From Microcaldota archaeon (GTDB taxonomy: Archaea; Micrarchaeota; Micrarchaeia; Micrarchaeales; CABMGC01), in contig JAJZJQ010000011.1 in the NCBI GenBank assembly GCA_021851065.1, forward strand, positions 1 to 43,589: DNA of 43,589 bases. The letters run 5' to 3'. The position numbers and the translations under genes are program-made. The notes under the pieces were generated by a model. It did not search any database, had not been told where the DNA came from, and saw only the letters and a program-made list of their open reading frames with translations. Positions 21,464-38,537 of this stretch are shown in pieces. Every line of letters starts with the position of its first letter. Position 1 is the stretch's first letter.

Positions 21464-22153
21464 TCATACAGTTATTATCCCGGCATCGGTTGCAAGGCTT
21501 ACAAGATCGCGCCTGTGCATTGTTTCTTTCCTGGATTTCAAACCGTGCCCGATGAGGACATCATCGAGGCATGTCACGCTTACCTTTGATCCTGAAAGGT
21601 TAGCGCCCCTGAACTCCGCGCCTCTGGCTTTGACTGAGATCAGAATTGCTCCCTTGAGGTCTGCGCCGCGCAGATACGCATTCTCAAGATTTGCTCCGGT
21701 GAAATCGCAGCCTTTCAGATATGCGCCCCACAGGTAGGTGTCAGACAGATCGGCAAGTTTAGCCGATGCATAGCCCAGATATGCGCCGCTCATGTTTGCG
21801 CCCTTTGCCTTAGTTTTTGACATTGCTGCGTATGCTAGATTCGCGCTGCCCAGATTTGCAGTCTGAAGATCGGCACCGCTGAGGTTTGAATAACCCAAAT
21901 TTGACCCCCCAAGGTTTGCTGCGCGTAGGTACGACATTGAAAGATTGGCCTCCGAAAGGTCTGCGCCGCCAAGGTTCGAGGCCTTGAGATTTGTACCGGA
22001 TAGGTTGAGTCTTGACAGGTTTGCTCCGCCAAGGTTTGCTGCTGAAAGATCCATGTTTATTGACTTAAGGTCATGTCTGAGCTTCTTCTCCGAAGAAGTT
22101 GGAAACATATATATACTATCTCTTAGACCTTCTATAACAGTACTTCTTTGCAT
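21464..22153 (-). CDS. Pentapeptide-repeat protein
   Basis: 229 aa. From about residue 35 to 185 there are some 30 tandem A(D/N)LXX-type units (for example ANLGGANLSRLNLSGTNLKA), which fold as a right-handed quadrilateral beta helix. Such proteins can mimic DNA or serve as scaffolds; no partner is indicated. The N-terminus (MQRSTVIEGLRDSIYMFPTS) and the last 45 residues are non-repetitive; the C-terminal HRRDLVSLATDAGI could be a small helical domain. ATG 22153 is about 27 nt after a TATA box (22177-22186), favouring a leaderless start. It is divergent from the nucleotidyltransferase and shares that TATA region. Confidence 0.88.
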   Translation of the reverse strand: MQRSTVIEGLRDSIYMFPTSSEKKLRHDLKSINMDLSAANLGGANLSRLNLSGTNLKASNLGGADLSEANLSMSYLRAANLGGSNLGYSNLSGADLQTANLGSANLAYAAMSKTKAKGANMSGAYLGYASAKLADLSDTYLWGAYLKGCDFTGANLENAYLRGADLKGAILISVKARGAEFRGANLSGSKVSVTCLDDVLIGHGLKSRKETMHRRDLVSLATDAGIITV

Positions 22154-22186: not shown

Positions 22187-22212
22187 CGCGTGCGGTGGGG
22201 GAGAGTGATTTA

Positions 22213-22977
22213 TTGGATGCATTGATACTATGTGGGGGTTTTGCAACCAGGCTTGAGCCAATAACTTTGTTTGTGCCAAAACCGCTGCTTCCAATAGGCG
22301 GTAAGCCCATACTCGATCACATAATAGAAAACGTGGAGAGGCAGGGCATTGGCAGGATAGTGCTTTCAACAAACCGCAAATTCGGGGACCAGTTTGAGTA
22401 CTGGATAGGGAACTGGAAGGCAAGCGGTCTTGATGGCAAGATAAGCCTAATAACAGAGCCCACCATGCATGATGGAGAGAAGTTTGGCGCAATAAAGGGC
22501 ATAAACTATGCCATAGAAAGAGCAGGGTTCGCTGATGATCTTCTTGTCATAGCTGGCGACAATTACTTCTCTTTCGACCTTGGCAGGTTAATAGGCGCGT
22601 ACAGGAAGACCGGAAAGCCCACAATAGCCGTACATAACATAAAATCAGTAGAGGGTGCTACGCGCTTTGGAGTTGTGGAGATGGATGGGGACATAGTGAA
22701 GGGCTTTGAAGAGAAGCCGCAGCACCCTAAATCGACTTACATAAGCACAGGCATATACGCGCTGCCTAAGGAGACACTTGGAAGGTTCAGCGAGTATGTA
22801 AGTGATGGTAACAATCCCGATGCACCTGGCTACTTCCTGCAGTGGCTCATAAAGAAGGAGAAGATATACGGAGTTGTGTATAACGAGGACTGGCATGACA
22901 TAGGCACTGTTGATACATACAGGGAGGTCTTCGAGAAGCACCTGCACATGGGCCTTGGGAGTAGTTCGGACGAATAG
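22213..22977 (+). CDS. Sugar-phosphate nucleotidyltransferase (glucose-1-P type)
   Basis: 254 aa from TTG 22213; GTG 22195 would add six residues but lies before the expected transcript start. Forms an NDP-sugar from a sugar 1-phosphate and NTP. Visible: nucleotide-binding LILCGGFATRLEPIT with following KPLLPIGGKPI, the metal site AGDNYF, FEEKP, and WHDIGTVDTY at the C-terminus. RmlA/GalU-like enzymes vary in base and sugar, so the exact product (dTDP-, UDP- or GDP-linked) is open. It probably serves glycan or S-layer glycosylation, in keeping with the N-x-S/T-rich surface proteins in the window. Confidence 0.88.
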   Translation: MDALILCGGFATRLEPITLFVPKPLLPIGGKPILDHIIENVERQGIGRIVLSTNRKFGDQFEYWIGNWKASGLDGKISLITEPTMHDGEKFGAIKGINYAIERAGFADDLLVIAGDNYFSFDLGRLIGAYRKTGKPTIAVHNIKSVEGATRFGVVEMDGDIVKGFEEKPQHPKSTYISTGIYALPKETLGRFSEYVSDGNNPDAPGYFLQWLIKKEKIYGVVYNEDWHDIGTVDTYREVFEKHLHMGLGSSSDE

Positions 22978-23095
22978 CTGCAGCAATAATACGAATCAAT
23001 TAGATAACCACAGGCACTTATCAGCCATTTCTGCAATAGCCCTTGATCCTAGAACCCTAATAACATAAGGCATATTAGTTGCCGAAAGGAACAAT

Positions 23096-23160
23096 GGCTG
23101 CCAATAAGCAGCCCTGTCCTTTGCTGGCCTTAATCCATCCCCGTTGGATCCGCAAAGGAC
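23096..23160. other. Candidate structured RNA element: two successive stem-loops
   Basis: GGCTGC (23096-23101) pairs with GCAGCC (23108-23113) over a CAATAA loop. Immediately after, GTCCTTTGC (23116-23124) pairs perfectly with GCAAAGGAC (23152-23160), enclosing ATCCA (23133-23137)/TGGAT (23145-23149) with loop TCCCCGT. No gene of normal quality occupies 22978-23441. A symmetrical TTTATATA at 23193-23200 could drive transcription on the minus strand through both hairpins. It may be a small RNA, a cis-regulatory leader or a terminator region. Confidence 0.4.
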
Positions 23161-23228
23161 CCAACAAAACCCAATCCCTGGCTCTGTATTCCTTTATATA
23201 GAATGGGGTATTTAAGTCTTGCTATTAG

Positions 23229-23247
23229 TATTACGGATAACGTAATA
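23229..23247. repeat. Inverted repeat TATTACG-N5-CGTAATA
   Basis: Perfect 7-bp arms (23229-23235 and 23241-23247) around GATAA in the AT-rich intergenic stretch before the small peptide gene; a possible protein-binding site. Its half-site TTACG resembles the 13-bp palindrome found 60 bp further on. Confidence 0.4.
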
Positions 23248-23300: not shown

Positions 23301-23313
23301 TACGAATATAGTA
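23301..23313. promoter_or_regulatory. Palindromic operator copy 1 (12/13 match)
   Basis: TACGAATATAGTA differs at one base from the 13-bp consensus TACGAATATCGTA, which is perfect at 27943 and 28013. It lies about 70 bp upstream of the TATA box at 23384. Confidence 0.5.
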
Positions 23314-23383
23314 AAATAGGAGCGGTGCTTTTATTCTCTTTGGCGGATTTCGGTATATCGTCGGATTTATTGTAGAGAAGATA

Positions 23384-23391
23384 TTTATATG
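23384..23391 (+). promoter_or_regulatory. TATA box before the 47-aa peptide gene
   Basis: TTTATATG; transcript start is expected near 23414, followed by GAGGTGG (23430-23436) as a strong ribosome-binding site for TTG 23442. Confidence 0.45.
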
Positions 23392-23441
23392 ACTTAGTTA
23401 TAACATATTGTCATTAATAGAGTTAATGTGAGGTGGGAACA

Positions 23442-23585
23442 TTGGCATTTGCCCTGGCAAGTGGTGGAGAGGCTAACAGAGGTCGCGAGTCTAGTCTTCA
23501 GCAGCTAAGAGATGATTTGAAAACGGCTAGTAGGAACGCCTATAGAGACCTGCCTAGCAGGGTAGATCTGCGCAGCTATAGATAA
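23442..23585 (+). CDS. Small peptide, 47 aa, unknown
   Basis: Starts at TTG 23442, with GAGGTGG five nucleotides upstream and a TATA box at an appropriate distance, so expression signals are better than chance. The peptide is hydrophilic: MAFALASGGEANRGRE, a helical SLQQLRDDLKTASR, then NAYRDLPSRVDLRSYR. There is no membrane segment, cysteine or recognisable domain. It precedes a 272-aa unknown gene on the same strand by 82 nt, though that gene has its own TATA box. Its YRDLPS near the C-terminus loosely resembles YSELPS in the small protein at 33.1 kb. It could be a leader, precursor or carrier peptide; that is speculation. Confidence 0.45.
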   Translation: MAFALASGGEANRGRESSLQQLRDDLKTASRNAYRDLPSRVDLRSYR

Positions 23586-23670
23586 AGCACTGGACTTGAT
23601 TCTTGATAGAGAAGGTGTTTATATGGGGCTGTGCAACAATGTTTGATTACGGCTATTTGAGTGGTGGATG

Positions 23671-24486
23671 ATGTCAGTTGCAGTATCTAGCAGGAGTAAT
23701 GAGGATCATGGTAAGCACACCATGTTGAAGAGCGTAGCTAGGGGGTTAAGTAGGATAAAAGTTGATGCATTGCATAGCATGAGGGATGGAGGAATGGGAG
23801 CATTTAGGAGAGCCAGGCGCGCTGTTGGACTTGGAAGAGTCAAGAAAACTGGAGAGGCAGACAGCGAAGGAATTAAAGGGAGGCTTGACTTTCGTGAGAT
23901 TGGACTAAGGGAGATGCGTGCCAGAGGAGTTGAAGATACCATCATGATACTTCAAAGCCTGATAGACCCAGGACTTATAGAAAATAGCGAAAGATACATC
24001 AGAAGCTTGAGTGGGAGAGAAAACTTAGAGGCCAGACATGCATATGTAGAAGGAGCAATAATGGCTTTGGCCCCAGACAGTATTCTTGGTTATATAGACA
24101 GGGAAGCTCTTACAGAAGAAAGGAGTAATGCAATAATCAGATTTGCGGCAAGAATAGCAGCGTCAACGGCTGCTGAACTTGAGGGCTTTCTTGACTCTGA
24201 TGGGAAGATACGCGTAGGAGGTAGGGAAACAGGACTTGGGATTTTGAATGTTGACAGGATGCGCAACTATGCTGTAAGAGAGTATACGTTGGTTCGCGAT
24301 AGAAAGGCAGCTGAAGGCTTGTGCAATTCTACAGAAATCTTGTATAAAAAGATGGGATATCCTTTCTCAGGTAGTCTGGTAGTCAGAGACATGAAACGCG
24401 CTATGGAAGAAATCGAAGCAGAGATGGAATCAGTTAGAAGGATTGCAGACGAGTCAAATCTGCACGGCAACATAAGAGATAATTAA
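23671..24486 (+). CDS. Unknown helical protein, about 271 aa
   Basis: Starts at ATG 23671 (or the adjacent ATG 23668), with GGTGG just upstream and a TATA-like TTTATATG at 23618. I do not recognise the family. The first 60 residues are basic (KHTMLKSVARGLSRIKVDAL, RRARRAVGLGRVKK), suggesting nucleic-acid or membrane-surface contact. The remainder is almost entirely helical and charged, ending in a heptad-like segment (MKRAMEEIEAEMESVRRIA). No signal peptide, membrane span, cysteine cluster or catalytic motif is evident. It sits between the 47-aa peptide and an M20 amidohydrolase on the same strand, inside the region marked by the shared palindrome. Confidence 0.6.
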   Translation: MSVAVSSRSNEDHGKHTMLKSVARGLSRIKVDALHSMRDGGMGAFRRARRAVGLGRVKKTGEADSEGIKGRLDFREIGLREMRARGVEDTIMILQSLIDPGLIENSERYIRSLSGRENLEARHAYVEGAIMALAPDSILGYIDREALTEERSNAIIRFAARIAASTAAELEGFLDSDGKIRVGGRETGLGILNVDRMRNYAVREYTLVRDRKAAEGLCNSTEILYKKMGYPFSGSLVVRDMKRAMEEIEAEMESVRRIADESNLHGNIRDN

Positions 24487-24522
24487 ACATTTGCGAATTA
24501 AGAATAGCCTTATGTCCCTTTG

Positions 24523-24595
24523 AAGATATACCCTGAATTTGTATGCCTGTTTCAAGATGGCCATACTTATTTCCCAATTAACTTCGGTATATCTT
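24523..24595. other. Nested inverted repeats (candidate RNA structure)
   Basis: AAGATATACC (24523-24532) is perfectly complementary to GGTATATCTT (24586-24595). Between them, GTATGCC (from 24541) pairs with GGCCATAC, flanked by further imperfect pairing (GAATTT/ATTTC). This fills most of the 173-nt gap before the M20 gene. Candidate leader structure, terminator of the upstream gene, or operator. Confidence 0.4.
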
Positions 24596-24642
24596 TGCAT
24601 TTCCTTTCACCCCATCTTTGAGAAGGTGGATTTTCACGCTAT

Positions 24643-24651
24643 GAATTTATA
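24643..24651 (+). promoter_or_regulatory. TATA box of the plus-strand M20 gene
   Basis: ATTTATAAG at 24643-24651 predicts transcription from about 24672, downstream of the first possible start (TTG 24660). This favours TTG 24684, which is preceded by GTGGA. Confidence 0.45.
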
Positions 24652-24683
24652 AGTTTAATTTGGATATTGTAGATAGTGGAAAC

Positions 24684-25793
24684 TTGAAGAAGGATGTGGT
24701 AAAACTTGCCCTTGATATGGTTGGCATAGGTTCTGATACACACGCTGAAGGAGAAAAAGGTGTTGCTGAGTACATACATGAATACTTGCAAGGAATTGGG
24801 ATCGGATCGGAGCTAATAGAATTCAAGCCAGGACGCTTTAATGTGTCTGCCAGAATTGGCAGTGGAGAGGGGCTTATGCTTAATGGGCACATGGATACTG
24901 TACCTATTGGTGATTCAAAGCTATGGAAATACTCGCCTTATGGGCACATTGCAAACGGCAGATTATATGGCAGGGGTGCATCTGACATGAAAGGCGGCCT
25001 TGCAGCCATTCTCGCGTCCCTAAACAACGTTGATTTAAGGCATCCGGAAAGATCCCTGCTCCTCACATTCGTTGCAGATGAAGAAGTAGGTTCGGATGGT
25101 TCGATGTGGCTACTGGATAACAGAAAAGAGCTCTTCGAGGGAGTTAGATACGGCATAATATCCGAAGCCACAGACTTGGACATACAAGTGTCACAGAAGG
25201 GAATCCTTTCTTTCTATCTGAATATCAGAGGGAAGGGTGCGCATGCATCGGCTCCATGGCTGGGAAAGAATGCGATACTTGATGCAGTGAAGGCAATAAA
25301 GGCGCTGGAGATTATTGAGTCCAAGAAGAGAATCAGTGACCCGCTGCTTGGTAGATGCACGATTAACATAGGCAGGATAACCGGCGGGACAGCAACCAAT
25401 GTTGTGCCGGATAGCTGCCGTGTAGGAGTAGACGTACGGCTGCCTCCGGGCGAGAACAATGGTGAATTTGTTGGGGCAGTAAGGAAGGCTCTTGGAAAGT
25501 TGGGCATAGACCATAGTATTGAAATAACAGTGGACAGAGACCCTTATAGAGTAAATGGGAGGTCTCCGCTAATCGGATTTATGAAGTCGGTTGCCAAGTC
25601 GAATCTTATAGGGGGGAGAGGATACACAGAATCGAAGCTCTACAATGAACGAATAAATATGGATTGCGTGGTAGTTGGACCAGGAGTGAAAGATGCCATA
25701 CATAAACCCGATGAATTTGTACCCCTGTCAAACCTTGCAAGGTCAGAGAGAATATTCTCAAACGTTATGGATAGATGGTGCAACAATTCCTGA
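24684..25793 (+). CDS. M20-family amidohydrolase (ArgE/DapE/carboxypeptidase G2-like), copy 1
   Basis: 369 aa from TTG 24684 (377 aa from TTG 24660). Two-zinc enzyme cleaving an amide bond next to a carboxylate; members deacylate N-acyl amino acids or cut dipeptides. Metal and catalytic motifs are complete: NGHMDTVP, GRGASDMKGG, ADEEVGS, SEATD and the C-terminal DAIHKPDE. The lid domain between about 180 and 290 is present (GAHASAPWLGKNA). It converges on the GNAT-like gene with abutting stop codons. Substrate cannot be assigned. The region holds three M20 genes of different subtypes, suggesting a pathway with protected amino acids. Confidence 0.88.
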   Translation: MKKDVVKLALDMVGIGSDTHAEGEKGVAEYIHEYLQGIGIGSELIEFKPGRFNVSARIGSGEGLMLNGHMDTVPIGDSKLWKYSPYGHIANGRLYGRGASDMKGGLAAILASLNNVDLRHPERSLLLTFVADEEVGSDGSMWLLDNRKELFEGVRYGIISEATDLDIQVSQKGILSFYLNIRGKGAHASAPWLGKNAILDAVKAIKALEIIESKKRISDPLLGRCTINIGRITGGTATNVVPDSCRVGVDVRLPPGENNGEFVGAVRKALGKLGIDHSIEITVDRDPYRVNGRSPLIGFMKSVAKSNLIGGRGYTESKLYNERINMDCVVVGPGVKDAIHKPDEFVPLSNLARSERIFSNVMDRWCNNS

Positions 25794-26648
25794 TTAGGCG
25801 TAAGCGCTAGGCTGGTTGTCGTAGTATCCATTACCGCGCAGTAGTTCCCTGAAGCTGCTACCGATATCATTGTAGCGAAATAGGCCTATAGCGTTCCTGA
25901 TTCCGTTTTCTGCAGCAGAAACTGCATATTCACCTAATGAGAACAATACAGCACTTGACGTTTGCCCTTTCCGCCTATCCATCAGGCTTGCTTCAACGCC
26001 ATCGATTACTGCAGTCACTGTGCGATTGGTATAGTCTAATCTCACCATCGAAGCGCTGTTTGATGGTGACGGCTCTGCTTCCGCAGGGCATCCCCGCAGC
26101 CTTATTATATCGCGTGATCGATCTTGCGGATCGCAGCTGCATAGAAGAGCCGATAGCGCGGGGGTGGATGCATGGAAATTCTGGATTGTTGTAACATTAA
26201 ATCCGAGCCACTCGGGCAATTGCCTAAACGACATAAGATATCCTATGGTAACTGTAGCTCCAACTATCAGCATGTTTCCTTGCAGCAGTGGCTCTTTATA
26301 ATCTTGGAGAAGCCGGTTCTGGAGACCGGGATACAGACTTCGGCCCCTGAATTCAGGTAGCATTATGGCGCTCCCTAGTTCCATTATCTTTGGGACCCCA
26401 TAGGCGGATAGATTAACACCAATGTTTGCCATTGTCTTGGAACTTGGTCTTTCTGTAAGTTTTAGAAAACCAACTGCAACGCCATCCGCAAGCAAGACGG
26501 CTGCCCGACCATCTTCATATGCAGTATAGAAATCGCCTATGCAGATATGCCTCATAGTGCTATCTTTATTTACATAGTTCCAAAGCGGCTGCAGATTTGG
26601 AGTTGCTGGTCGATCAGCTGTAGTAACGCACCTTATTTTCTGGGTCAT
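25794..26648 (-). CDS. GNAT-like acyltransferase, copy 1
   Basis: 284 aa. The middle (AVGFLKLTERPS ... IMELGSAIMLPEFRGRSLYPGLQNRLLQDY, about residues 58-120) matches the GNAT beta4/motif A pattern, where the R-G-R-x-[LI]-Y loop binds the pyrophosphate of acyl-CoA. The N-terminus (about 25-55) is compatible with the first GNAT strand and helices. The C-terminal 120 residues are not typical and may be a second degenerate GNAT half. It follows the GCS2-like gene by 26 nt, so they form one operon under the shared palindrome. Donor and acceptor are unknown. The C-terminus ends NQPSAYA. Confidence 0.55.
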   Translation of the reverse strand: MTQKIRCVTTADRPATPNLQPLWNYVNKDSTMRHICIGDFYTAYEDGRAAVLLADGVAVGFLKLTERPSSKTMANIGVNLSAYGVPKIMELGSAIMLPEFRGRSLYPGLQNRLLQDYKEPLLQGNMLIVGATVTIGYLMSFRQLPEWLGFNVTTIQNFHASTPALSALLCSCDPQDRSRDIIRLRGCPAEAEPSPSNSASMVRLDYTNRTVTAVIDGVEASLMDRRKGQTSSAVLFSLGEYAVSAAENGIRNAIGLFRYNDIGSSFRELLRGNGYYDNQPSAYA

Positions 26649-26674
26649 GAATTCTGCCTATTTCCCTAGTCTAG

Positions 26675-27886
26675 TTATGGCGATGGTCTTAGACTTCTAG
26701 CCAGAGTGTTTACCATCTCAGTTGAGTGGGTAATGTGACCTTCTCTGACCATTGTTGCAAGATGCTGCGAGTAGCTTCCATGTTCCAGTAGTGCCCCCAT
26801 CTCCGCAGAGTATTGATGAATAGTATGTCGATCATAACCGCCTGATATGAGGGCGCTCTCTGCGTGAATCCATAATTCTGCCGCCATGGTGCGCAGATCA
26901 CTTCCGCTTATCCTGGTATTGAGCCCGCTTTTAGATGCCAATATCATATCCCTGAAGTCAGTATCCTGAAGCCGGGGCAGGGAATCTGCGCCGTATTTTT
27001 CAATGTGATATGCAAGCCCGATTACAAACGCGTTTAGCGTCTGCATGCCTATTATCGTGGTTGGTAAATCAGGAGATCTCACCTCCAGAACAAAAGAGGT
27101 CCCATAGCCGGCAAGGTCAGGGCGCGGACGCACATGCCAGAATATTTGATGCGGGGCGAGCAAGTCGAAAGTGCTGTGACCGCTGGAACTTAGAATACTG
27201 TAATTGGCATCCATTGTACCTCTACTAAGATTTAACTTGACCTGATCGGATATTATCTTTCTGTGATCCTCATAATGATCCGTGGACTCCAGCCTAGGCA
27301 CTTCTATAGTGCTGCGAGGGTATCTTGCCAGGCCTTCCTCATATTTTCCCATTCTTCTGCTCTCAAGGCCTGAGTCATTGAATCCGGAGCTGTTGTTCGA
27401 CGATTCGAACCGTGAGCTGGCAGTAAGCGCTACCAGAACAGGACCAATATCCCTGAAGAAATTGTGAAGCTCTATGCCTAGTCTGTCGCTCGTTACACCA
27501 AGTACAATCTGCTGGCTGGATATGTCCATAAAGGATCTAGCGAATTGCTGCGATAGCAAGGTAGTCCTGTAAATAGTGGGCTGCAGATCCGAAGTGTCAG
27601 ACAGTACTGAAGAGCCGCCATAAGTTACGCCGCCAAGCGAATTGACTAACGATGTCAGTGCAGGTACATAAGTCATGAGTCGCTGGTTGAGTTCGCTAAG
27701 ATCTTTTGCAAACGATACCCTAAGTTCAACAACATCACGAGGATTTACTTCGCTGGCAAGGTTCAGGGGAGGCCAGGTAATGCGCGGCGCAAGGGCGACT
27801 ACGCGATCTGCAGAGATACCCCTAAGGTTTATCTCAAGTTCATTACTAACAATTGCTACTTTTCGTTGCGCCAGGGCGTTAGGCAT
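26675..27886 (-). CDS. GCS2-like carboxylate-amine ligase (divergent)
   Basis: 403 aa. Several parts line up with the GCS2 family (glutamine-synthetase fold, ATP-dependent glutamate-cysteine or other carboxylate-amine ligases): SNELEINL near the start, NPRDVVELRVSFAKDLSELN, RLGIELHNFFRDIGPVLVALTASSRFES, and WHVRPRPDLAGYGTSFVLEVRSPDLPTT, which mirrors the W-x-[IV]-R-P ... G-T-x-E-[IV]-R-x-x-D segment. The histidines before the LGV strand in classic members are replaced by QQ, so substrate use may differ. First gene of an operon; operator 27943-27955 and TATA 27918-27930 lie directly upstream. Assignment rests on remembered family patterns only. Confidence 0.55.
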   Translation of the reverse strand: MPNALAQRKVAIVSNELEINLRGISADRVVALAPRITWPPLNLASEVNPRDVVELRVSFAKDLSELNQRLMTYVPALTSLVNSLGGVTYGGSSVLSDTSDLQPTIYRTTLLSQQFARSFMDISSQQIVLGVTSDRLGIELHNFFRDIGPVLVALTASSRFESSNNSSGFNDSGLESRRMGKYEEGLARYPRSTIEVPRLESTDHYEDHRKIISDQVKLNLSRGTMDANYSILSSSGHSTFDLLAPHQIFWHVRPRPDLAGYGTSFVLEVRSPDLPTTIIGMQTLNAFVIGLAYHIEKYGADSLPRLQDTDFRDMILASKSGLNTRISGSDLRTMAAELWIHAESALISGGYDRHTIHQYSAEMGALLEHGSYSQHLATMVREGHITHSTEMVNTLARSLRPSP

Positions 27887-27917
27887 GATAATCTGCGAAC
27901 TATGTCATACCTGATAC

Positions 27918-27930
27918 CATATTTAAATAC
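27918..27930 (-). promoter_or_regulatory. TATA box of the GCS2-like/GNAT-like operon
   Basis: The minus strand reads GTATTTAAATATG; predicted transcript start is near 27898, 12 nt before ATG 27886. Confidence 0.55.
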
Positions 27931-27942
27931 TTGTGTGGGCGA

Positions 27943-27955
27943 TACGAATATCGTA
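27943..27955. promoter_or_regulatory. Palindromic operator copy 2 (perfect)
   Basis: TACGAATATCGTA, extended to a perfect 15-bp ATACGA-ATA-TCGTAT at 27942-27956. It ends 12 nt upstream of the TATA box of the GCS2-like operon. Confidence 0.65.
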
Positions 27956-28012
27956 TAGTCTGTTAATCGCCTAGAATTAGGCTCTTTCCAAGTTACTTCT
28001 TCAAGGCATATA

Positions 28013-28025
28013 TACGAATATCGTA
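28013..28025. promoter_or_regulatory. Palindromic operator copy 3 (perfect)
   Basis: A second perfect copy of the same 15-bp palindrome (28012-28026), exactly 70 bp from copy 2 and touching the stop codon of the upstream M20 gene. Confidence 0.65.
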
Positions 28026-28026
28026 T

Positions 28027-29196
28027 TTACAACTGCTCTATGAAGGTTTTGAAGAGCGTGGTAACTTCATTAAGGCTCTTATGTGAGACCCATTCGTTTG
28101 CCGAATGGTCGTTGCCGCCGTTGGGCCCTATTACTACGATGGGCTTATTCAGGTTCGCAAATACGTTTTCATCAGCAACAGATAGACCGTAGTTTATTTT
28201 TACACTGCCATTAATGCCCCTAATGATTGCCATCATTTTTTTTACCACATGGCTTGCAGTTGTAGTGTCGTAGGATTCAAGATATGGTGTTTTACGTTTC
28301 TTTACATACACTTTGACGGAAGTTGCCTTGTTAAGTACACCGCGCCTTTGCAATAGCCTTATGTAGGCTTCTACGCGCTTGCGCATCTGGTCTATTGTGC
28401 TTGGGGGAACAAGGTGTATGTCAATTTCGAGGTAAGCTGTTTCCGGTACAGACAGGCTTGTGGAACTACTGCTTAGTTCCCTAACAAACAAGCTTTCTCC
28501 AGACATCCTTGGATGTTTTCTTAATCTTAATTTTCCAATGTTTAAGGTAATCTTTGCTGCCTCGTTTATGGCGCTTACTCCGCTCAGGGGGTGTGAGCCA
28601 TGCGTTGACTTTCCCTTTATTTCGAGAGCGATTACGCATCTTCCTCTTCTGCCAAGAGTTATTACGCCTATGCCCCCTTGTACCCCATCCTGCACTCCAG
28701 CCTCTGGCACAACTATAGCTTTGACGTCCGAGAACCAAGATTTATGGTTTTGCACCATGTGCCATGCGCCTTCTGATATGTTTTCCTCGTCTACGCCAAA
28801 GGCGATCTTTATCTTTTTCTTAGATTGGCGCTTTGCGTTTTCAAGTATCGCAGTGATGCCTCCCTTCATGTCGTGAACCCCAAGCCCGTATATTTTATCG
28901 TTTTCTGACTTTATGCGCAGAGGATTAGACCCCCATATGCCGTAGATAGGAACAGTGTCCATATGGCCATAGAAAAGAAGCGCGTCCTTGCCTTTTCCAC
29001 GCTCGGCCAGTATATTGAACCTGTTCTTCCCTATGTAATCCCTCTTGGTTGAGAACCCATAAGAATGCAGCTTTTTCTCAAGATATATTGCGAGTTTCCC
29101 TTCGTTTGGAAATATTGAATTTATGCTTACCAGTTTCCCAAGAACTTCTTTTTCGCCCATATTGACCCCAATAGTATTGTCGTTCCCAGACATCAT
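28027..29196 (-). CDS. M20-family amidohydrolase (DapE/LysK-like), copy 2
   Basis: 389 aa from ATG 29196, which overlaps the TGA of the decarboxylase-like gene by 4 bp; ATG 29160 is an alternative. Motifs: YGHMDTVP, GLGVHDMKGG, VDEENISEGA, PEAGVQ and NDHSANEWV, so both metal sites are intact. DEEN instead of DEEVGS and the HSANEW ending are reminiscent of LysK/DapE-like deacylases (family knowledge; substrate not proven). Last gene of the operon GNAT-like / PepT-like / decarboxylase / M20. Direct coupling to the decarboxylase gene suggests it supplies or consumes that enzyme's substrate. Confidence 0.85.
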   Translation of the reverse strand: MMSGNDNTIGVNMGEKEVLGKLVSINSIFPNEGKLAIYLEKKLHSYGFSTKRDYIGKNRFNILAERGKGKDALLFYGHMDTVPIYGIWGSNPLRIKSENDKIYGLGVHDMKGGITAILENAKRQSKKKIKIAFGVDEENISEGAWHMVQNHKSWFSDVKAIVVPEAGVQDGVQGGIGVITLGRRGRCVIALEIKGKSTHGSHPLSGVSAINEAAKITLNIGKLRLRKHPRMSGESLFVRELSSSSTSLSVPETAYLEIDIHLVPPSTIDQMRKRVEAYIRLLQRRGVLNKATSVKVYVKKRKTPYLESYDTTTASHVVKKMMAIIRGINGSVKINYGLSVADENVFANLNKPIVVIGPNGGNDHSANEWVSHKSLNEVTTLFKTFIEQL

Positions 29197-30470
29197 ATCA
29201 CGGTTGTGCTCAGGAGGTCTTTGGTTGTCTCCCTCCTGCGTATGAGCACAGTATTGCCGTCGCTTTTCACCATAACTTCGGCAGGCCTTGGCCTGCCATT
29301 GTACTGGCTGCTCATCCCATAAACATACGCACCGGAATTTGCTACTGATATGATGTCCCCTGCAGATACACGAGGAAGCATCCTGTTGCGTGCAATGGCA
29401 TCGGTATTCTCGCACACCTCGCCTACCACATCTGCAGTTATGGATGCCTTTGCGCCTGGTTTTGTTATCACAGATATGTCGTGGTATGCGCCATAGAGTG
29501 CAGGCCGCAGAAGAAGATTCATGCCGATATCGGTGCCTATGAACATCTTCTCGTATTCCTTTATGTAATTTACAGTGCCCAGAAGCACAGTTGTGTCTGC
29601 TACTATATACCTGCCTGGCTCCATCATGAGCTGCAGGCCGCCAAGACCGTATTTCTCTGATTTCTCCTTGAACTCCCTGGAGACTAGTTCTGCAGTCTTT
29701 TGTATGTCAAGCGGCTTCTCCTCGGGTTTGTATGGCACCCCGAATCCCCCGCCTATGTCTATGAATTCAGGAGTTATGCCGAGCTTGGACTTGAGCGCCC
29801 CGGCAGAATCAAGTATCTTCGACGTTATTATCGCAAAATATTCGGCGTCGAGGACATTGGAGCCACACATCATGTGCATGCCAAAGCGCTTAACTCCGCT
29901 GTCTTTGGCAGCCTTGTATGCCTCGAGTATGTGGGAGGTAGGTATGCCAAACTTTGATTCCGGACCCGATAGCGTTATGCCCGGGAACTCGCCTTTGCCA
30001 AAACCAGGATTTAGCCTAAACGACACGCAGTCAGGCACGCCGATATCAGACAGCATCCTGAACTGGCCTATGTCATCGAAATTTATCACAAGCCCGGCAT
30101 TAAGCGCAAACTCTAGCTCTGACCTTGATGCATAGTTGGGCGAGAACATTATCCTGTTTCGATCAACACCAGCGCCAAGAGCAATCTCTATCTCTGGAAC
30201 AGATGAGGCATCCATGCCTGCCCCAAGCCCTGAAAGTGTTCTTATAATGGCAGGGTTTGAATTTGCCTTTATTGCATACTTTATCGCAATATTGCCGTAG
30301 TTCTTCTTGAATGCGCTTTCAAGCCTTTGGTAATTATCTATGAGCCTATTCTCGGACATGACAAGCAGAGGGGTGCCATATTCTTTTGCAAGGTTAGCCA
30401 ATATTGTAGAATCGATGCCATTTGCACCATGTGAAACTTCGATATCTGGATTGTTTTTATTTTCAGGCAT
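29193..30470 (-). CDS. Diaminopimelate-decarboxylase-like PLP enzyme (fold type III)
   Basis: 425 aa from ATG 30470 (TTG 30506 is also open). Visible: PLP lysine K68 in YAIKANSNP, the phosphate-binding GGGFGVPY, EPGRYIVAD, catalytic cysteine C353 in GEVCENTDA, and AYVYGMSSQYNGRPRPAEV near the C-terminus. LysA enzymes normally read CESGD at the cysteine and have a HIGSQ segment; here these are CENTD and MCGSN. The substrate might therefore be meso-diaminopimelate or a related amino acid such as ornithine, arginine or carboxynorspermidine. The flanking M20 genes on both sides support an amino-acid biosynthetic or salvage role. Confidence 0.85.
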   Translation of the reverse strand: MPENKNNPDIEVSHGANGIDSTILANLAKEYGTPLLVMSENRLIDNYQRLESAFKKNYGNIAIKYAIKANSNPAIIRTLSGLGAGMDASSVPEIEIALGAGVDRNRIMFSPNYASRSELEFALNAGLVINFDDIGQFRMLSDIGVPDCVSFRLNPGFGKGEFPGITLSGPESKFGIPTSHILEAYKAAKDSGVKRFGMHMMCGSNVLDAEYFAIITSKILDSAGALKSKLGITPEFIDIGGGFGVPYKPEEKPLDIQKTAELVSREFKEKSEKYGLGGLQLMMEPGRYIVADTTVLLGTVNYIKEYEKMFIGTDIGMNLLLRPALYGAYHDISVITKPGAKASITADVVGEVCENTDAIARNRMLPRVSAGDIISVANSGAYVYGMSSQYNGRPRPAEVMVKSDGNTVLIRRRETTKDLLSTTVI

Positions 30471-30514
30471 ATAACACACTTGTTTTATAGCAGATAAACT
30501 ATTCAAACCTGTGG

Positions 30515-31621
30515 TCAGGCAGATAGCCTTGCCAGCTCCACCATCATGCTCTTTGTGGCAGCAAGGTCCGATACCTTAAGCACCTCTGAAGTCGAATGGG
30601 GCAGCTTGCCACCATGGCACATCACAAGCGGTCTGTAGCCTTTTGCAGCAAGTATGTTGGCTTCGAAGGTGGCCATCCTGCTGCTTATGCTGAATTTCAG
30701 CCCGAGGTTTTTTGCTGCGGAGCGCGCGATCTTAACCACGCTGCTGTCCGGATTAACTTCGAATGTTGGTGCTCCGTCATCAGTTATCATCCTTATCCGA
30801 TACCTGCACCCGGTGGCCTTGCAGGCCCTCTTTGCAGCAGCATCAACCTCGTTTATAGCAGATCGTATGGTTTTCTCGTCAAATGCCCTTGCGCCGCAGC
30901 TAAGCGTTGCGCTGCCAGGCACTATGTTCCTCTTCCTGCCCCCGCTTATCATTCCTATGTTTAGTATGCTGCTATGGCTGCGCCTGCCCAGCTTCAGCGA
31001 CGTAATTATCAGGCCTGCTGCCTTGACTGCATTTGCGCCCTTTTCAGGATTCAGCGCTGCATGAGCCTCCTTGCCGATTATTTCAACATCAAAGAGCCTG
31101 CTACCAAGCGCCTTGTGGATGAAGCCGCCGACATCGCCTTCTGAATCTAGCACGAACACAAGATCGCCATTGTTGCCTTTTGGTAGATAGCCAACCCCCA
31201 TGGTTCCCTGCTCCTCTCTTGTGGAGAATATGCCTGTGACAGTAGGCCTTTTGCTCATCTGTACTATCTCCCCCAAGGCGCATATCAGTGGGGCTACACC
31301 TGCCTTGTTATCTGCCCCGAGTATGGTGCTCCCATCGCTCCTTATGACTCCGCCGCGCACCGTAGGCTTGATGCGCCTGTCGCCAACTTCTACAGTATCC
31401 ATGTGCGCTATGAACGTGAGCCTGCGTTTCCCCCCGGGTATGGTCGCAATTACGTTGCCGCTGTTGCTGTTGGTGAACGCCTTGCTGCCGTCCTGCTTTG
31501 CAGTTACTCCCCTTCTGGAAAGCTCATGCATTATGAGCTTGGCCACATCTGCTTCCTGGCCGCTTGGCGATGGAGTTGAGACAAGCCTGCAGAACAACTC
31601 TTGCAACTCTTTTCGCGTCAA
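30515..31621 (-). CDS. M20-family peptidase, PepT-like, copy 3
   Basis: 368 aa from TTG 31621. Aminotripeptidase-type M20 enzyme: TFIAHMDTVEVG, GADNKAGVAPLI, STREEQGTMG, LDSEGDVG, a lid domain with GKEAHAALNPEKGANAV, and HGGKLPHSTSE at the end. Family members release the N-terminal residue from tripeptides or related small peptides. It follows the GNAT-like gene by 12 nt and precedes the decarboxylase-like gene, in the same operon. No signal peptide, so it is cytosolic. Confidence 0.85.
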   Translation of the reverse strand: MTRKELQELFCRLVSTPSPSGQEADVAKLIMHELSRRGVTAKQDGSKAFTNSNSGNVIATIPGGKRRLTFIAHMDTVEVGDRRIKPTVRGGVIRSDGSTILGADNKAGVAPLICALGEIVQMSKRPTVTGIFSTREEQGTMGVGYLPKGNNGDLVFVLDSEGDVGGFIHKALGSRLFDVEIIGKEAHAALNPEKGANAVKAAGLIITSLKLGRRSHSSILNIGMISGGRKRNIVPGSATLSCGARAFDEKTIRSAINEVDAAAKRACKATGCRYRIRMITDDGAPTFEVNPDSSVVKIARSAAKNLGLKFSISSRMATFEANILAAKGYRPLVMCHGGKLPHSTSEVLKVSDLAATKSMMVELARLSA

Positions 31622-31633
31622 GTTATAACCTTG

Positions 31634-32527
31634 TTAAGTAGTTCGTCTTGCTATTGCTGCACTGCGTTCAAGAGAAGACTGCGCATGATTATCTCCGTAA
31701 TTGGCACTTGAAGCCAGAAGAGGGTGCTCTTGGCGCAGCATTGTGTACTCAGACAGGCGTGAGGCAGCGCTTGGGGTGCGATTGAATGCAGCCATTGCAC
31801 CGAAACCATGCGGCATTATCCAGCCATCCCTAATCAGCCTGCTGCGTATCTCGCCGGGTGTAAGCCTTGATAGCATCTTCCACGCTACAGGCCACTCTTC
31901 AGGGTGGCGCTTTGTTGCATCGCGGCGCATACTGCTGTGGAACTTGTCTACAGTGTCAGTAGGTACTTTGGTAACCACAGTGGATCCGGCCTCGGTTGAG
32001 CGCATAAACATCTGTTCTTCGAAAAGGAACCGGAGGTCGTGTAGCAGGTTGCTGCCGCCTGAACCTGGACCCTTGTGTACATACACCCTGGTATCATCTG
32101 CGCGATTATCCTCGCCTAGCATTCTGGCTTTTTCCAGAGCCATCATAGTAAGAGCAGTGTAGATTCCTGCGCCATTTAAGCTTACAAGCTGCGTACGCAG
32201 CTCTGCTCCGGCAAGTTTCTGCCCGTGAGCCGTTTCTATACCTAGGTAGTCTACAGCGGTGTGGCCGATTATACTTGCGCCCTGCCTTGCGATCAGCGAA
32301 CATCCTGAATCTATCCAGCTACGCAGTGTTTCCTCGCTAACATCAACTACCCCATGCGATGGCCTGTTATTTATGAATCGATGTAGATCCGGTAAATCTG
32401 ATACGGCTGCTGCATGGATTGTGATTTTGCCTCCGGTGCCTATCTGTATACCTTCCTTGTACAACAGGGAGGCGCACGCATTGCTATTGAATCCATTAGG
32501 CTTAGCGATATGCATATTGGATAGCAT
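31634..32527 (-). CDS. GNAT-like acyltransferase, copy 2
   Basis: 297 aa from ATG 32527 (ATG 32515 also possible). Residues about 33-150 fit a GNAT fold: KITIHAAAVSDLPDLHRFIN as first strand/helix, CSLIARQGASIIGHTAVDYLG as strands 2-4, then AELRTQLVSLNGAGIYTALTMMALEKAR in the motif A position and SNLLHDLRFLFEE like the motif B region. The acyl-CoA loop is less canonical than in the copy at 25.8 kb. The last 100 residues are unassigned. First gene of the four-gene operon; the same palindrome-12 nt-TATA layout as the GCS2-like operon lies upstream. Confidence 0.5.
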   Translation of the reverse strand: MLSNMHIAKPNGFNSNACASLLYKEGIQIGTGGKITIHAAAVSDLPDLHRFINNRPSHGVVDVSEETLRSWIDSGCSLIARQGASIIGHTAVDYLGIETAHGQKLAGAELRTQLVSLNGAGIYTALTMMALEKARMLGEDNRADDTRVYVHKGPGSGGSNLLHDLRFLFEEQMFMRSTEAGSTVVTKVPTDTVDKFHSSMRRDATKRHPEEWPVAWKMLSRLTPGEIRSRLIRDGWIMPHGFGAMAAFNRTPSAASRLSEYTMLRQEHPLLASSANYGDNHAQSSLERSAAIARRTT

Positions 32528-32564
32528 CTTAGACTAACCCCATATAAGCAATTTGCTAAAATCA

Positions 32565-32577
32565 GATATATAAATAC
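32565..32577 (-). promoter_or_regulatory. TATA box of the GNAT-like/M20/decarboxylase operon
   Basis: The minus strand reads GTATTTATATATC, closely matching the TATA box of the GCS2-like operon. Predicted transcript start is near 32544, 17 nt before ATG 32527. Confidence 0.55.
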
Positions 32578-32589
32578 TGGTAGTAGATT

Positions 32590-32602
32590 TACGAATATCG
32601 GA
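32590..32602. promoter_or_regulatory. Palindromic operator copy 4 (12/13 match)
   Basis: TACGAATATCGGA, one mismatch to the consensus, ends 12 nt upstream of the TATA box at 32565-32577, the same spacing as copy 2. It lies just behind the stop codon of the Lrp-type regulator gene. Confidence 0.6.
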
Positions 32603-32607
32603 GGAAG

Positions 32608-33003
32608 TCACTTCAGCACTAGGCTCGTAGATGTATCTGTAACCCCGTCCAGAGCCCTTATCTTCTCTACCATGATGTTGACTTCCTCTATAGATTCGGC
32701 TTCTACAAAACATATGATGTCAAAGTTGCCGGATATTTCATAGGTGTGGTATACGCCAAGGGCCCTTATAGCATCCGATACCTTTGTGGTAGATACTGCT
32801 CTTGACGTAGCAACCATCACAACACCCTTCACTTCGTCTTTCGATTCTATGGTAAAGCGCCTTATGACTCCCTCTCTGAGAAGCTTGGCTACCCTTGCCC
32901 TTATCGCACCCTCAGTAAGATCCAATCTCTTCCCAAGATCCACAAAGGACATCCTAGAATCTGCCTTGAGCATCCGCAGTATCTGCGAGTCGGTCTGGTC
33001 CAT
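32608..33003 (-). CDS. Lrp/AsnC-family transcription regulator
   Basis: 131 aa from ATG 33003; a TATA-like TTAAAATATC (minus strand, about 33025-33034) fits a leaderless start there, whereas ATG 33045 would add 14 atypical residues. Residues 1-50 are the helix-turn-helix domain (MDQTDSQILRMLKADSRMSF, LTEGAIRARVAKLLREGVIR); 60-131 are the RAM/ligand-binding ferredoxin-like domain (YHTYEISGNFDIICFVEAES). Lrp proteins respond to amino acids and bind palindromic sites upstream of TATA boxes. It neighbours four amino-acid-type genes and an operator, so it is the prime candidate for controlling the 23-33 kb regulon, probably with autoregulation through 33062-33077. Confidence 0.9.
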   Translation of the reverse strand: MDQTDSQILRMLKADSRMSFVDLGKRLDLTEGAIRARVAKLLREGVIRRFTIESKDEVKGVVMVATSRAVSTTKVSDAIRALGVYHTYEISGNFDIICFVEAESIEEVNIMVEKIRALDGVTDTSTSLVLK

Positions 33004-38415: not shown

Positions 38416-38537
38416 TGGCGGGGGGGAGATTTGAACACCCGATCTCTAGATTTCTTAGCAATCATCGCACGAATGCTCATCACTCATAAAGCTTAGCATA
38501 TGAGTCTAGCGCTCTAACCAGGCTGAGCTACCCCGCC
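38416..38537 (-). tRNA. tRNA-Met (CAT) with 47-nt intron
   Basis: Acceptor GGCGGGG (38537-38531) pairs with CCCCGCC (38423-38417); the D arm is GCTCAGCCTGGTTAGAGC, the anticodon stem CTAGA/TCTAG with loop CTCATA-A, and the T loop TTCAAAT. The T stem has one T-T mismatch. An intron (38452-38498) interrupts after position 37, the canonical archaeal site for splicing endonuclease, and both intron ends carry TGCTAAG. The general sequence fits elongator tRNA-Met; a tRNA-Ile2 (agmatidine-modified CAT) cannot be fully excluded. CCA is not encoded. Confidence 0.88.

Follow-up and report, generated by a model that had tools for sequence, protein, structure and literature searches.

A palindromic operator beside a LysM-like Lrp gene marks a probable lysine regulon in Micrarchaeota

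Regulators of the archaeal Lrp family are the closest described counterparts of a system that we analyzed in a 43,589-nucleotide contig of a Micrarchaeota archaeon (JAJZJQ010000011.1, assembly GCA_021851065.1, positions 1 to 43,589; hereafter the window), in which copies of a 13-bp palindrome lie close to an Lrp gene. The binding site of one such regulator, Ptr2 of Methanocaldococcus jannaschii, has the core ACGA-N3-TCGT, and the palindrome in the window is like it. Archaeal Lrp dimers bind inverted repeats of 13-17 bp, and for Ptr2, LysM, and Ss-LrpB a dimer in a constrained position just upstream of the B recognition element (BRE) activates transcription through contact with TBP (PMC2995911). 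LysM of Sulfolobus is a lysine-responsive activator of lysWXJK, and the targets listed for FL11 (PH1519) of Pyrococcus include lysJKYZ (PMC2995911).

The locus in the window shares some properties with each of these systems and differs from each in others. It is like LysM in the best NCBIfam model of its regulator and in having lysine genes as targets, but the targets belong to the diaminopimelate (DAP) pathway and those of LysM to the LysW (aminoadipate) pathway, and the regulator falls below the LysM equivalog cut-off. It is like Ptr2 in the activator-type placement of its sites, the use of two regularly spaced sites, and a regulator open reading frame (ORF) that overlaps the control region of the target (PMC2995911), whereas the targets of Ptr2 are electron-transport genes, with no amino-acid effector expected. 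It resembles FL11 in its 13-bp palindromic site, the probable effector lysine, and the closest solved structures, but FL11 is a global regulator with about 200 predicted units and we found a handful of sites. A distance of two or three helical turns is usual between Lrp sites in archaea, versus about seven turns in the pairs described here. Finally, the genes of the bacterial and archaeal DAP pathway (dapA, dapB, dapL, dapF, and lysA) are the same genes that are regulon targets in relatives, but in the genus of the window dapB and a DAP-type dapA, and mostly dapF, were not found, and GNAT and M20 genes are there instead.

We conclude, with a probability of roughly 0.83, that the LysM-like Lrp protein encoded next to it uses the palindrome TACGAWWTTCGTA as its operator and controls genes for lysine acquisition via DAP, and that a proximal dimer most likely activates while an outer site acts cooperatively. 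Judged from comparative sequence evidence, the regulon appears to be real, conserved, and lysine-related, and a regulator of the lysine-sensing type very probably controls the palindrome-marked promoters in Micrarchaeota.

The palindrome is rare in the genome and clustered in the window. An earlier note, made from the window alone, had proposed a hidden regulon across 23-33 kb based on four copies of the 13-mer TACGAATATCGTA. We confirmed their coordinates and mismatches: two copies (27943-27955 and 28013-28025) are exact, and the other two (23301-23313 and 32590-32602) differ at one position. The proposed extended form, the 15-mer ATACGAATATCGTAT, is present at both perfect copies (27942-27956 and 28012-28026). 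The note had noticed no further copy in the window, which is right for sites with up to one mismatch, but a two-mismatch site at 23232-23244 (TACGGATAACGTA), 69 bp from the copy at 23301, had been overlooked. The 13-mer is not common genome-wide. The whole genome (1.13 Mb) contains two perfect copies, both in the window, compared to 0.01-0.04 expected from Markov models of order 1-3, and four one-mismatch copies, compared to 0.6-1.4 expected. Two of these four are outside the window (C10:18584 and C25:7830); neither has the TATA layout described below, and we take both as chance occurrences. What counts as evidence is that two copies are perfect and that the sites are clustered, have the TATA layout, and are conserved.

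The operators are at a fixed distance from TATA boxes. Toward the controlled gene, the operator is followed by exactly 15 nt and then a TTTAWATA-type TATA box. This composite, allowing one mismatch, occurs only three times in the genome, and all three are in this cluster, on the minus strand, preceding the acylA-pepT-lysA-dapE1 operon, the gcs2-acylB operon, and a predicted short transcript. The proximal operator of the gcs2-like operon (27943-27955, a perfect TACGATATTCGTA) is 15 nt upstream of TTTAAATA, with the BRE/TATA region GTATTTAAATATG at 27918-27930; its distal operator (28013-28025, also perfect) is 70 bp away and follows the dapE1 stop codon by 1 bp. The operator of the acylA operon (32590-32602, one mismatch) is 15 nt upstream of TTTATATA, with the BRE/TATA region GTATTTATATATC at 32565-32577, and is 5 bp behind the stop codon of the Lrp gene (32608-32610), as previously noted. 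The 12-nt gap reported from the site to each of these two BRE/TATA regions is correct. At the third promoter, the proximal operator (23232-23244, TACGTTATCCGTA on the minus strand) is 15 nt upstream of CTTAAATA, and the one-mismatch copy at 23301-23313, 69 bp away, is its partner, that is, the outer half of a second operator pair.

The sites track the Lrp gene across genomes, and their spacing is conserved. We compared 60 genomes (including that of the window, G000) and further loci from relatives; the genus of the window was sampled by 12 genomes, with assemblies 76-93% complete. Lrp orthologs were present in 17 of the 60 genomes, the window's own counted. A perfect site was found in 11 of these 17 and in 1 of the 43 genomes without an ortholog (Fisher p = 4e-7, uncorrected for phylogeny), in support of the earlier assignment of the site to the Lrp family. 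Same-genus genomes without an Lrp ortholog (G001, G002, and G010) had no perfect sites. We aligned 21 promoters, from Micrarchaeota and one Aenigmatarchaeota locus, and found the site, 15 nt, and a TATA box in most of them. The exceptions were a spacing of 16 nt in G033, a TATA box slightly further down in L104, and a TATA-like stretch (ATATATAT) at dapA of G032. Of the 11 promoters with paired sites, 10 had a distance of 68-70 bp between the two; in G009 it was 59 bp, one helical turn less. Unlike the TATA distance and the phasing of the pairs, the flanks of the sites were not conserved across genera. Several relatives have the outer site of a pair directly behind lrp, and the density of strong sites was about 30 times higher within 200 bp of lrp than further away (small counts of six versus two sites, in loci that were not used to build the matrix). 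Relatives keep the 13-mer at these promoters and with this spacing, and the proposal of a regulon across this region is borne out.

The adjacent regulator appears to be a LysM-like Lrp. Its gene is on the minus strand at 32608-33003, starting at the ATG common to the orthologs (the longest ORF reaches 33045). The protein has the two parts of an Lrp/AsnC family member, an N-terminal AsnC-type winged helix-turn-helix (PF13404, 48.3 bits) and a C-terminal RAM domain (PF01037, AsnC_trans_reg, 40.9 bits), both above the gathering cut-offs. Its best NCBIfam model was LysM (NF040947), ahead of the next by about 80 bits; because the score of 131.5 bits is below the equivalog cut-off of 180, we describe it as probably working like LysM and do not file it as LysM. 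A relative from Bathyarchaeota scored 173.3 bits on the same model. The nearest solved structures were those of FL11 (4e-23). The sites have the properties of archaeal Lrp operators, which are inverted repeats of 13-17 bp with an AT-rich center and several sites on one helical face: the palindrome is 13 bp with an AT-rich center, and the pairs are 68-70 or 59 bp apart.

The targets in relatives point to a DAP/lysine regulon. In locus L092, lrp and a site pair are followed by dapA-dapB-lysC-asd-dapL-lysA; dapA, dapB, and dapL (DAPAT) exceeded the NCBIfam equivalog cut-offs, lysC exceeded the aspartate kinase subfamily cut-off, asd was a Pfam assignment, and lysA, cut by the contig end, was assigned from position and sequence only. 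Perfect sites precede dapA and dapL-lysA in G032, and a one-mismatch site is upstream of dapA-dapB-lysC in G034. In further genera, sites also precede dapL-lysA or dapA (G191, G089, and G203), with dapL-lysA and dapA-dapB-lysC-asd-lrp as target units, and a perfect site precedes dapF in G004. LysM-like lrp genes are also beside DAP operons on contigs of Bathyarchaeota and Thermoplasmata metagenome-assembled genomes, with TACGATAATCGTA between lrp and the DAP operon in the latter. Since the targets elsewhere are these DAP genes and the lysA operon, the regulon is, as far as sequence can tell, a DAP/lysine regulon that controls genes of lysine acquisition.

The geometry of the promoters is consistent with activation when lysine is scarce. 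An Lrp dimer at the proximal site, just upstream of the BRE and TATA box at a fixed distance, would recruit TBP and TFB under lysine scarcity; the constant spacing of 15 nt agrees with where Ptr2, LysM, and Ss-LrpB bind as activators. A second dimer or higher oligomer would bind cooperatively at the outer site, which is on the same face some seven turns of the helix further upstream, and the near-constant helical phase of that site suggests such cooperative binding by an oligomer. Lysine or DAP in the RAM domain would then weaken or reshape the complex; lysine is the expected effector because of the targets and the examples of LysM and FL11. The sites, their spacing and pairing, their conservation, their co-occurrence with the Lrp gene, and the identity of the target genes are observed; that this Lrp binds the sites, what its effector is, that it activates and does not repress, and any looping or wrapping of the DNA are what we infer. 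The regulator is most likely an activator.

The main rival reading keeps the regulator and the operators and replaces activation with repression. A lysine-bound octamer would wrap around the operator pair, and a TACGAA half-site beside the BRE would let it block TBP and TFB. FL11, which is lysine-responsive and binds 13-bp palindromes, forms an octamer with lysine and is described as a repressor (PMC2995911), and an ATACGAA half-site between operator and TATA box, beside the BRE, is common among the promoters of relatives. However, this half-site is absent from all three promoters in the window, and the conserved site upstream of the BRE at one fixed distance is typical of archaeal Lrp activators. 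We consider repression unlikely, although it is the strongest of the alternatives.

It is improbable that some other DNA-binding protein uses the palindrome and that the Lrp gene is a mere neighbor. The target sites of G032 and G034 are on contigs other than that of lrp, so the linkage is not absolute. However, the perfect sites follow the ortholog over the 60 genomes and are missing from same-genus genomes without it, and a 13-bp inverted repeat has the size and form of Lrp sites. Other observations also weigh against a regulon run by the LysM-like Lrp: the regulator misses the LysM cut-off, some lrp orthologs (that of G034 and those of several distant loci) have no nearby site, and gene order could partly explain why sites lie close to where compact genes end. 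Furthermore, the 13-mer pattern read backwards also has six matches in the genome at up to one mismatch; because this equals the count for the palindrome, the near-match tally proves nothing, and we rejected raw near-match counts as evidence. Even so, chance or a repeat element with no regulatory role, which this equal frequency would favor, is very unlikely given the unique composites in the genome, the sites before DAP genes in relatives, and a TATA distance and pair phasing that stay fixed across genera while the flanks vary.

In the genus of the window, the usual genes of de novo lysine synthesis appear to have been lost. We found no dapA, dapB, or dapF in G000 (87.5% complete), which thus has no recognizable de novo DAP pathway. 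Among the 12 genomes of the genus, dapB was above the cut-off in none, dapF was found only in G004, and no DAP-type dapA was found as judged by strength of match (PF00701 matches in four of the genomes scored 103-195 bits, versus 294-324 for DAP-linked ones). LysX, taken as the mark of the LysW (aminoadipate) pathway, had weak matches only, never above the cut-off, so this pathway was not recognized in G000. The assemblies are incomplete, but the same DAP genes are absent throughout the genus. G000 retains lysA and an aspartokinase, and G003, G007, G008, and G009 keep paired operators with no full lysA match. In six genomes (G001:C18, G004:C26, G006:C4, G007:C22, G009:C6, and G035:C31), the aspartokinase has a weak lysA/carboxynorspermidine-decarboxylase-like gene no more than a few kb away, so that aspartokinase may serve polyamine rather than lysine synthesis. 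The genus would have either lysine salvage or an undescribed route to lysine.

In the genus, the sites have a GNAT acyltransferase and an M20 deacylase as their conserved targets, to which lysA may or may not be added. The GNAT-domain protein of the genus had an AlphaFold pLDDT (a confidence score) of 88, with a GNAT fold over part of the chain, and the metal-site motifs of the M20 deacylase are conserved. In L090 (9815-10924) and relatives, the GNAT-domain protein is fast-evolving (about 19-47% identity to the first member), and the M20 gene next to or near it is much better conserved (43-56%); the L090 protein has an N-terminal part of about 190 residues outside any domain assignment.

The first operon in the window, on the minus strand, begins with acylA (31634-32527), which has no Pfam match of its own; its counterpart in L097, a distant homolog, is scored as a GNAT acetyltransferase. 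It continues with a PepT-like M20 peptidase (30515-31621, by profile match), the diaminopimelate decarboxylase gene lysA (29193-30506; TIGR01048, 376 bits versus a cut-off of 298), and the M20 deacylase gene dapE1 (28027-29163), a target in most close relatives with the regulator, in which the motifs GHMDTV, DMKGG, and DEEN are invariant or nearly so. The second, also on the minus strand, contains the gcs2-like gene (26675-27886), a weak match to GCS2-type carboxylate-amine ligases that fell below the YbdK/GCS2 thresholds (27 bits versus 176 for TIGR02050; 19.5 versus 21 for PF04107), and acylB (25794-26648), which has a weak GNAT-like motif that aligns with the conserved acyltransferase of relatives. 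We found no homolog of the gcs2-like gene among the loci of relatives and no detectable homology to the L097 gene at the corresponding position, and a single-sequence fold of its product was discarded as useless (pLDDT 32). A homology to the GNAT gene of relatives was not supported for gcs2 or acylA and was weakly supported for acylB. An M20 deacylase gene of the ArgE/DapE family (24660-25793, plus strand; TIGR01910 above cut-off) is convergent with the regulon and is a putative member at most. The layout closest to that of the window is in L097 (8732-16393; Micrarchaeota YP3.bin93), with acylA-pepT-lysA, an uncharacterized gene for 450 amino acids, the GNAT gene, and two M20 genes.

The third promoter may drive a structured RNA. 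The predicted transcript from the 23232 promoter (22980-23190, minus strand, extent inferred) is convergent with an NTP-transferase (nucleotidyltransferase) gene (22195-22977) and is strongly structured (z = -4.1; none of 200 shuffles was as stable), making it a candidate operator-driven structured RNA. The sibling genome G004 has the same promoter, followed by the motif GGGATTGGGTT..GTTGGGTC and a hairpin of different sequence; among the 60 genomes, GGGATTGGGTT occurs only in G000 and G004. Only one tRNA in the window passed the Rfam gathering thresholds, so the RNA at 23.0-23.2 kb belongs to no known Rfam family at that threshold.

Tentatively, and at a little less than even odds, we suggest that the regulon outlived its pathway. 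In this genus, where dapA, dapB, and LysX would be missing, the LysM-like operator would now drive an undescribed lysine route, DAP/lysine salvage or a new acyl-protected pathway. That route would combine lysA with a GCS2-like ligase, M20 deacylases, and an acyltransferase of the GNAT type; the operator might also drive the small structured RNA. The regulon suggests a way in which regulation can survive in a genome-reduced archaeon as the biosynthetic genes beneath it disappear, and it makes the uncharacterized GNAT, M20, and GCS2-like enzymes testable as lysine-supply genes. Our search of the literature turned up no description of a transcription factor regulon in Micrarchaeota. LysM-like control is of a known kind; as far as that literature shows, the operator, a target in the DAP pathway among DPANN archaea, and a regulon that persists once core genes are lost appear to be new. 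The operator of this regulon is defined, its promoter geometry is fixed, and it has a candidate regulator, all of which can be read from sequence.

Two other features of the window are on the minus strand. The tRNA match (38416-38537) spans 122 bases, suggesting an intron. An ORF at 21464-22153, which adjoins pyruvate/branched-chain dehydrogenase E1-like genes, has repeated five-residue units (A(N/D)LGG-like) and likely encodes a pentapeptide-repeat protein.

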